Source: Solidesulfovibrio sp.
GTDB taxonomy: Bacteria > Desulfobacterota > Desulfovibrionia > Desulfovibrionales > Desulfovibrionaceae
Length of the DNA stretch: 64,000 nucleotides
Direction of reading: 5' to 3'
NCBI RefSeq assembly: GCF_038562415.1
Contig: NZ_JBCFBA010000014.1
Location: forward strand, 1-64,000
A model generated the notes under the pieces. The model was given only the letters and a program-made list of their open reading frames with translations. It was not told the DNA's origin and searched no databases. A program made the position numbers and the translations under genes. Positions 11,225-12,888 of the stretch are shown in pieces (position 1 is the first letter of the stretch; every line of letters begins with the position of its first letter).

Positions 11225-12888
11225 TCTGCATCTCCCCCTTCGGGTTCGGTGTCCAAAGAGTCTGAAGAGGGAAACACCGGACAGGTGTTTTCCCTCTCTT
11301 TAGAGAGAGAAGCTGTCCGGTGTCCGGTCCTAGATTTCATGCGGGTTCCGGGGCCGGACGGGGTGTTTTGTCCGGTGTCTTTCTGTCCGGTCCCGGAATC
11401 AAGTAATGACGCCATTTTTGCACCGGACGGCCCTTTCTGTCCGGTCCTGTCCGGCAATTCCTGTCCGGTCCTCTGTCCGGTCCCAACGTCACCGGACGGC
11501 TCCTCCTGTCCGGTGCTTAGGGGGGTGTCCGGCGAAGCACTCAGGTAGAAGTTTAGCTTTCGGTTGCCACCTCGACGCTGCACCTCGAACAAGTGGCCAT
11601 CCAGGAGCGCGGCGGACACGGCGGCGCGAACGGCCGTCTTGGTCGCTCCCGGGATGTCCTCCTTCCACCTTGCCGGGAAGACATCTCCAAGGGCCTTGAT
11701 GGTCAACGCGGGTTCGTTCGCTTCCTCGCGTCGGCGGACCTCGGCCGTGATCCGCTCCACAAGCTGGGCTTCAAGGGCTTTGTCCTCTTCGGTCTTCTCG
11801 GGTTCGACGTACCGCAATGTGCCGTCGTGCTCACGGTGCAGGTAAAAGACTTCGCCCAAGGGCGCGTCATTGGCTTTGTTGACCTTGCCGGCGAGGTATT
11901 GCCCATCGCCTGCCTTGCTGCCCACGCCCCGGGCCCTGGCCGCTTTGCCGGGAAGGGAAGCCAGGTTGAGTTGCCATCGCGCAGCAGCCGAAAAGCCACT
12001 GGCCCCGCGCATGGCGTCCTGGTGCAAGGCCGCGTCAACATCGAAGGAGCCATCCCTTTTCTTGGCCACCCCCTTGCCCACATGAGCGCAGCACAAGACA
12101 CCCGCTCCCGTCTCCTGAGCCAGATGTTCGAGAAGAGAGCAAAACGTGGTGGCGCATGCGTTGTCGTTTTCGTTTTGCCCGTAGAGACGCGATTGAGGGT
12201 CCAGGATGGTCAAGGCCAACCCGGGGATGGACTTCGCCAAAGCAAGCAACTCGTGGAAGTTACGCGACGGCCGCGCCTCGCCGCCAGCCATCTCAACCAA
12301 ACGCAGGTCCTGCCCGGCGGCAGGTATGGCGATGAAGTTGGTTCGAAAATCCGTCTCGGCCGGATGAGGCAGGAGAGTTACTGTTTTCCCGTCTTCCGAC
12401 TCGGCCCGGATAGGGCAAAACGCCCGGAACATGCGGCGGATGCGTCGCCATAGGACAGGTCTGGATTCTTCACAGAATATGGCCAGGACCTTGCCTTTTC
12501 GTGCCGGGCGTAGAGCGTCTCCGAGAAACCCCCTATGCCCCGTGGCAATGGCCGCACCGATCTGAAGCAGGAAGCGGCTTTTCCCGGTCCCTTGCGCCCC
12601 GGCCACAAAACCGACCGTCCCGGCAAGGAAGGAATTATCGAATATCCAGGAAGGCGGGGGCGGCTCCTCATCCAAAAAACGGCCGGTTTCGAACTTGGCC
12701 AGGTCAAGGGAAGCAAAGAAGCCGCGGGGCTCCTCCTGGGGCTGTCCCTCCTCCTGCCCGGCCGCCCCTTCCTGGGCAAGCCCGGCTTGAACAGCGGCAG
12801 TAATGGCTACAGGGTCATCGAGGGTCTTGGCAGGTTCCGGCGCCACCGTCGGCGTCTGTTGGGCACGGGCGAGGTTGAGGTCGATCAT
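11221..12888 (-). CDS. RepA-like AAA ATPase (replicative helicase type)
   Basis: A 555-residue RecA-fold ATPase of the RSF1010 RepA/KaiC-like group. Walker A GAQGTGKS lies at residues 97-104 and a Walker B strand LALTILDPQSR near 230. It probably unwinds DNA for the downstream primase. The last 110 residues are low complexity with repeated TGQ tripeptides (TGQEEPSG, TGQRTGQ, TGQKGPSG). They are encoded by tandem ACCGGACAG-type DNA repeats (module C) and look dictated by the DNA rather than by protein function. The start overlaps the stop of the upstream gene (12885-12888). Confidence 0.85.
   Translation of the reverse strand: MIDLNLARAQQTPTVAPEPAKTLDDPVAITAAVQAGLAQEGAAGQEEGQPQEEPRGFFASLDLAKFETGRFLDEEPPPPSWIFDNSFLAGTVGFVAGAQGTGKSRFLLQIGAAIATGHRGFLGDALRPARKGKVLAIFCEESRPVLWRRIRRMFRAFCPIRAESEDGKTVTLLPHPAETDFRTNFIAIPAAGQDLRLVEMAGGEARPSRNFHELLALAKSIPGLALTILDPQSRLYGQNENDNACATTFCSLLEHLAQETGAGVLCCAHVGKGVAKKRDGSFDVDAALHQDAMRGASGFSAAARWQLNLASLPGKAARARGVGSKAGDGQYLAGKVNKANDAPLGEVFYLHREHDGTLRYVEPEKTEEDKALEAQLVERITAEVRRREEANEPALTIKALGDVFPARWKEDIPGATKTAVRAAVSAALLDGHLFEVQRRGGNRKLNFYLSASPDTPLSTGQEEPSGDVGTGQRTGQELPDRTGQKGPSGAKMASLLDSGTGQKDTGQNTPSGPGTRMKSRTGHRTASLSKERENTCPVFPSSDSLDTEPEGGDAE
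11276..11535. repeat. Repeat module C: TGTCCGG repeats inside repA
   Basis: More than ten copies of TGTCCGG or its complement CCGGACA lie in this stretch. The best ordered part is 11314-11390: two tandem TGTCCGG (11314-11327), a 26-nt centre containing CATGCGGGTTCC, one inverted CCGGAC (11354-11359), then direct copies at 11370 and 11384. The centre resembles those of modules A and B, but the repeat is different. The array lies wholly in coding sequence and yields the TGQ-rich tail of the ATPase. Confidence 0.75.

Follow-up and report, generated by a model that had tools for sequence, protein, structure and literature searches.

A putative iteron replication origin at the 3′ end of a RepA-type helicase gene in a prophage-like element of Solidesulfovibrio

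The prophage-like element and its helicase gene

The window, that is the whole 64,000-nucleotide stretch of DNA analysed here, covers bases 1-64000 of contig C14, part of a genome of 5.07 Mb. An integrated prophage-like element appears to occupy the first ~16.5 kb of the window. Read from right to left, this element carries a tyrosine integrase gene (15326-16528, minus strand; Phage_integrase, E 1.4e-30), an int-alpA RNA upstream of the integrase (14596-14672), a gene for an AlpA-like HTH protein, a small gene, repA and a primase gene. Beyond the primase, leftward, lie a gene for a 384-aa protein, one for a virion-like protein of ~1900 aa with a transglycosylase match, and a MazE/Doc pair; the left end then carries two distal repeat modules, B followed by A, with a gene for an HTH protein at the very edge of the contig. 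The primase gene, directly downstream of repA (10136-11224, minus strand), is of the DnaG/TOPRIM type by its domain matches (Zn_ribbon_DnaG, E 8e-7; Zn_Ribbon_Prim, 1.7e-6; PHROG DNA primase, 7e-21).

The giant virion-like ORF (2487-8554, minus strand, 1927 aa) leaves the expected frame near its end, and an ORF at 2487-3779 lies in another frame. A frameshift in the window copy or in the assembly is likely because the relative of this gene in genome G007 is one ORF of 2183 aa. Elsewhere in the window, a 110-bp direct repeat (92%) at 41918-42027 and 60223-60332 overlaps the end of a tRNA-Phe gene, and a second int-alpA RNA is found at 57502-57578. The 110-bp repeats are probably att sites flanking another integrated element, about 18 kb long.

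The repA-like gene (11221-12888, minus strand) encodes a protein of 555 aa, P0001, which Pfam, AlphaFold and Foldseek identify as a replicative helicase of the RSF1010-RepA/DnaB type (AAA_25). Its match to Pfam AAA_25 has an E-value of 1.5e-31, and the best Foldseek match of its model is RSF1010 RepA (1g8y; E 6e-13, TMt 0.76). The AlphaFold model comprises a RecA-type core, a C-terminal winged helix and, from residue 461, a disordered tail with a pLDDT of about 30, which is the part encoded by the repeat array described below. The winged helix (residues 365-455; 11524-11796, minus strand), the presumed reader of the repeat words, consists in the model of helices 367-389, 397-408 and 417-429 and strands 434-439 and 445-450, and it changes with the word in one pair of related loci, L026/L040. 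Folded alone, the domain gave a pLDDT of 90 and the same order, helix-helix-helix-strand-strand. Comparison of the C-terminal domain with winged-helix chains gave VIA Z-scores of up to 9.8 and an rmsd of 1.9 over 69 residues, with the Rpa2 winged helix ranking first and that of DNA-bound SAMD1 fourth. Foldseek assigned the domain to no named family, its E-values lying above 0.04, and a predicted winged-helix fold by itself reveals no function. The sequence search returned no member of the SaPI, lambda or IncQ systems; the phage and plasmid matches were to helicase domains, at 23-33% identity.

The repeat array in the window and in related loci

The 3′ end of the helicase gene, beside the primase gene, holds an iteron array (11276-11532, plus strand) with 14 copies of a short word, 10 direct (GTCCGG) and 4 inverted (CCGGAC). 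Its best 7-mer, ACCGGAC/GTCCGGT, is present 11 times in a slice of 271 bp, compared with a maximum of 4 in 1000 dinucleotide shuffles. Between the outermost inverted word, which begins at 11276 (CCGGAC at 11277), and the first direct word is a 14-bp hairpin, CTCTC-TTTA-GAGAG (11294-11307). Two adjacent direct words, GTCCGGT GTCCGGT (11315-11328, plus strand), are followed by the core CCTAGATTTCATGCGGGTTCCGGGG (11329-11353, plus strand), which includes the 12-mer CATGCGGGTTCC (11338-11349), and an inverted word CCGGAC closes the core (11354-11359, minus strand). TGTCCGG begins at 11314, 11321, 11369 and 11384 (GTCCGG at 11315, 11322, 11370 and 11385). A second spacer of 30 bp (11392-11421), AT-rich in homologues and a candidate melting site, precedes the inverted copy at 11423; the last inverted copy is at 11492, and the other direct copies are at 11438, 11448, 11462, 11474, 11507 and 11526. 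An earlier note on this DNA had described the two TGTCCGG units, the centre, the inverted CCGGAC and the further direct copies, all of which lie where it placed them; its "about ten" extra copies are 9 beyond the core unit. The array matched nothing in Rfam at the gathering threshold.

When the proteins of 247 genomes of the order were searched, 19 genomes proved to hold relatives of the helicase; searching with AAA_25 added many others, and a further 100 loci were retrieved. A related-locus search with P0001 returned one genome locus (Desulfovibrionales bacterium) and no viral locus. Of the 84 loci with enough flank, 44 had at least 5 copies of some 7-bp word at the helicase gene's 3′ end, compared with 2 of 168 control windows drawn from the same loci; with at least 6 copies, the numbers were 30 loci and 0 control windows. 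About half of the AAA_25 loci are without an array, which counts against the origin proposed below. The 64 arrays found use 38 different 7-mers, a number that includes words related to one another by a shift or a single base. The order helicase, array, hairpin, primase recurs in a viral contig (L044).

The nearest relatives with a strict common layout are L020, L021, L026, L027, L035, L040 and L107. Their arrays begin with an inverted word, the hairpin, two direct words, a core of 23-29 bp and an inverted word; these are followed by two direct words about 9 bp apart, a spacer of 29-34 bp, an inverted word and further direct words. The GC content of the spacer is 0.18-0.34 in eight relatives and 0.47 in the window, where the locus as a whole has 0.62; the window spacer is thus only moderately AT-rich, a second point against an origin. 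Of the 64 arrays, 30 have a five-pair hairpin with a TTTA, TAAA or TATA loop; among 2822 control slices, 2 have one. Changes on both sides occur at every stem position among 18 distinct hairpins, although these were selected for pairing and the frequency test alone is unbiased.

The core is less constant. Its slot is filled by ATTTCATGCGGGTTCCG in the window, while L021 has ATTTCAATAGGTTGCG and L040 has ATTTCAACAGGTTACG there. The motif is looser than had been stated, the closest homologue, L021, having TTTCAATAGGTTGCG where the window has TTTCATGCGGGTTCCG. The pattern TTTCA[AT]N2-4G1-2TT, found in 6 of 64 arrays and 17 of 2342 controls, is enriched only among close relatives, and the 12-mer with one mismatch has 3 matches in the window against 0.78 expected, so that the core alone is not diagnostic. 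A search with the core only was abandoned as unspecific: TTTCAATAGGTTNCG occurred in 120 viral stretches, only 3 of which had a word module of at least 4 copies, and AACCATGCGGGTTTCC was found also in coding DNA and in apparent intrinsic terminators. At three viral and genome loci (L011, L298, L304), AACCATGCGGTT/GGGTTTCC lie, apart from word arrays, in the loops of terminator-like hairpins that are followed by T-runs.

A separate class of AAA_25 helicases of ~300-700 aa (L131-L133, L140, L144-L147, L170-L175) has well-conserved C termini and arrays of TGT(A/C)CCGC-like words located mostly outside the gene; the word reader in this class may be another protein. In the podovirus MW202557 (L380:4854-5100), an array of GAGTACTCACAG-like words lies ~0.7 kb after the annotated repA.

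The relation of the arrays to the reading frame is informative. In the window the repeats force a TGQ-rich tail, as had been noted, with TGQ six times in the tail, and all three codon phases are used (7/2/1 for the direct copies and 3/1 for the inverted). Of the 64 arrays, 15 are wholly inside the ORF, 30 are wholly outside it and 19 run across the stop codon, from which it follows that the TGQ tail is a by-product of the DNA; the earlier suggestion that constraint on the DNA overrides the protein sequence is supported. Between the window and L021, whose helicases are 76% identical, most copies shift together from GTCCGGT to GTCCGGC, changing TGQ to AGQ, and some copies differ in codon phase. 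The comparison of homologues which that note had called for showed a conserved ATPase core and a variable tail in which the repeat-core-inverted-repeat plan of the DNA is kept with a new word. A TGQ peptide retained while the DNA repeats are broken was not seen in the homologues; instead, the peptide disappears.

The closest view of the relation between word and protein is provided by L026 and L040, two loci of a single genome, G136. The two copies of the helicase gene show about 98% DNA identity as far as codon ~376, and the two primase genes about 97% identity beginning at codon ~15, whereas the ~450-bp block between, comprising the winged helix, the array, the hairpin and the primase start, is about 45% identical. 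The words are GGGCCTT and GAACAAG, and only the block has been replaced. The reverse case is L091/L148, with the common word GGTTCGG, in which the cores are 41% identical and the C-terminal 70 residues 89% identical; in L035/L141, with different words, the core identity is 73% and the C-terminal identity 39%. For 523 related pairs, word similarity correlated with C-terminal identity, given core identity, with a partial r of 0.22, and 4 of 5000 label permutations gave values as high. This correlation is modest and in the expected direction, in a set that is phylogenetically structured. One pair of the separate class, L131/L132, is an exception, its C termini being 97% identical and its top words differing by one base. 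It was considered as a counterexample (CGGGACA and GCGGTAC) and set aside, since the related array L145 has both spellings; the class is treated as degenerate. By these sequence comparisons, the word and its presumed reader domain have been exchanged together at least once. This joint exchange, and a likely reader protein in the form of the helicase's C-terminal winged helix, go beyond what had been noted before.

Proposed function and known systems

We consider it quite probable (roughly 85%) that the array is an iteron replication origin of the prophage-like element, whose words are bound by the RepA-type helicase's own C-terminal winged helix. This reading is based on the array itself, its layout, its position at the gene end in homologues, the diversity of words, the predicted folds and the joint exchange in one pair, together with the presence of an integrase and a primase in the same element and the disorder of the array-coded tail. 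Binding of the words by the winged helix, the start of replication at this site and melting of the spacer are what we infer from them. In this scheme the 7-bp iteron words would be bound by the winged helix of the cis-encoded helicase; several bound helicases would assemble and melt the AT-rich spacer, the core or both; the helicase would then load on the opened strands, and priming would fall to the primase encoded downstream.

Winged helices are frequent among repressors, and the array stands between the genes for the helicase and the primase, so the words could be operators for autorepression of the operon by this domain of the helicase, and any contribution to replication would be secondary. 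This is improbable, as the position of the array, the 3′ end of the first gene, is not that of a promoter, a layout of 8-14 copies with an AT-rich spacer and a hairpin exceeds that of an operator, and unrelated helicase families adjoin the same plan. Slightly less probable again is a partition (parS-like) or packaging site in place of an origin: a gene for ParA or ParB is absent next to the array, whose partner in sequence is the C-terminal domain of a replicative helicase, exchanged with it, even though direct repeats bound by a DNA-binding domain are known at partition sites and the distal modules A and B are not beside a rep gene.

The earlier note had left it open whether the repeats matter as DNA or as RNA, and here the evidence favors DNA. 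There is very little likelihood that they act as a structured leader or attenuator ahead of the primase gene, an explanation that would account for a conserved hairpin with paired stem changes just before the primase start. In class-2 arrays, TTTA, TAAA and TATA all serve as the loop while the gene orientation stays the same, as a strand-neutral palindrome in DNA would predict; a T-run is absent, the words stand in both orientations in a fixed layout over 250 bp, and the distal modules have no downstream primase gene. Selection on the TGQ-rich tail, with the DNA repeat as its by-product, would fit the 7 of 10 direct copies in one codon phase that give TGQ; it is refuted by the homologues, in which words lie outside any frame (30 of 64 arrays) and tails are unrelated or absent. 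Words in all three phases, the other peptides encoded by the inverted copies and the predicted disorder of the tail also speak against it, and its probability is close to nil.

As a proposed origin, the array is ordinary in principle but unusual in how fully it is documented, with a natural exchange of reader and word. By analogy, its mode of working would resemble that of the SaPI/PICI, P4 and lambda origins, built on an RSF1010-RepA-type helicase. Replicons of the SaPI/PICI type replicate autonomously when a helper phage induces them. In SaPI/PICI islands, and in SCCmec with Cch2, a self-loading initiator helicase recognises through its C-terminal domain a short-iteron origin directly downstream of its gene (PMC7581432). 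In Gram-negative PICI origins, for which the iterons have been listed island by island, two iteron sets flank an AT-rich region (PMC6092414). The present arrays are similar in their position at or after the 3′ end of an initiator helicase gene and in the predicted C-terminal DNA-binding domain. They differ in that the helicases of those islands are of the DUF927 or D5/Primase_Cterm type, whereas the present one has an RSF1010-RepA/DnaB-type RecA fold and is accompanied by a separate TOPRIM primase; in addition, the array here enters the coding sequence and is associated with a TTTA-loop hairpin, a core and extra distal modules.

The lambda origin lies within gene O, with iterons and an AT-rich tract, and extra iterons lengthen the protein, by 13 residues in Stx phages (PMC7466680). 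Iterons within the initiator's coding sequence are thus common to both, and the added residues are comparable to the TGQ tail. However, lambda O is not a helicase and its origin is mid-gene, whereas the present array is at the 3′ end and often outside the frame; lambda has an O-type initiator with host DnaB loaded by P, and here the initiator is itself of the replicative-helicase type. RSF1010 and the IncQ plasmids provide the closest solved fold, that of RepA, and a replicon formed by helicase, primase and iterons. Their iterons are bound by a separate RepC, whereas here a winged helix is fused to RepA and there is no RepC gene: the gene after repA is repC in the IncQ plasmid pRAS3 and a DnaG-type primase gene in the window. 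The IncQ replicon also contains the primase sites ssiA and ssiB; of the present arrays, about half have a hairpin. The origin of RepA-PFP/ColE2 plasmids is also in the 3′ end of rep (PMC5304414), but ColE2 and Pseudomonas RepA-PFP use a Rep of the primase type as initiator in place of a helicase and have no iteron word array of such a layout. A limited search of the freely available literature found no published description of the present arrangement.

The related loci form a large natural set of winged-helix readers beside presumed 7-bp words, including a pair that differs only in reader and word, and they therefore make an initiator specificity code and the incompatibility of elements directly testable. 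They would also exemplify an origin overlapping a coding 3′ end, where the function of the DNA dictates a useless peptide tail. Arrays at helicase gene ends offer a simple route to the origins of uncharacterised prophages and satellites.

Distal modules in the window and in G007

The two distal modules at the left end of the element, also reported earlier, are real and follow the same plan as the array in repA. Module A (351-468), with the word AACGCCAC (ACGCCAC), has this plan without a rep gene; module B (522-611) has the word ACCCGTCAC (ACCCGTC). A search for these words led to G007, a sister species of the same genus, whose locus L358 is syntenic with the window element: the distal modules, which occupy the equivalent place with B and A in both, are 77% identical, the virion-like gene 69-80% and the primase 75%. 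In G007, the slot of the window's repA is taken by a DUF3987-family initiator (E 1.8e-57) that is unrelated to P0001 except for its first ~60 residues, the only part that the two share. DUF3987 proteins have been taken as the primase in a model of PICMI satellites (PMC10803314). At the 3′ end of the G007 initiator gene there is an array of word A with an A-type core, so that the same array plan stands beside unrelated helicase families. By this comparison the word next to the rep gene differs, being A in G007 and, in the window, C, the word of the repA array; the distal pair A and B is common to both. The idea that C and the two distal modules are one and the same origin was only partly right, the plan being the same and the words different.

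In the G007 element one word is thus present at the rep gene and again ~11 kb away. Phage P4 provides a precedent, since one initiator, the alpha protein, which is primase and helicase in a single protein, reads two separated sites, ori1 and crr. The likeness is to G007; in the window the distal words are not the rep word, and this difference counts against the origin reading. The distal modules may be second origins, relics of earlier initiators, or decoys. A more speculative suggestion, which we regard as doubtful, starts from three origin-like modules with three different words in one element, C for its own initiator and A and B for others, A being the word of the DUF3987-type helicase in G007. 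On this view the distal modules would serve foreign initiators: co-resident elements would fire them as piggyback origins, or they would titrate rivals as decoys, and the cassette of winged helix and array would be swapped against cross-reading. If true, this would amount to an incompatibility arms race in 7-bp words.

Modules ACCCGTCAC and AACGCCAC occur together at L358:14590-14860 and at 344-614 of the window, in each case at the far end of the element and away from the rep gene. A cluster of CCGGACA, the module C word, with 3 direct copies and 1 inverted copy, is located ~2 kb beyond the distal modules of G007 (L370:297-380; G007:C9 ~56797-56880).
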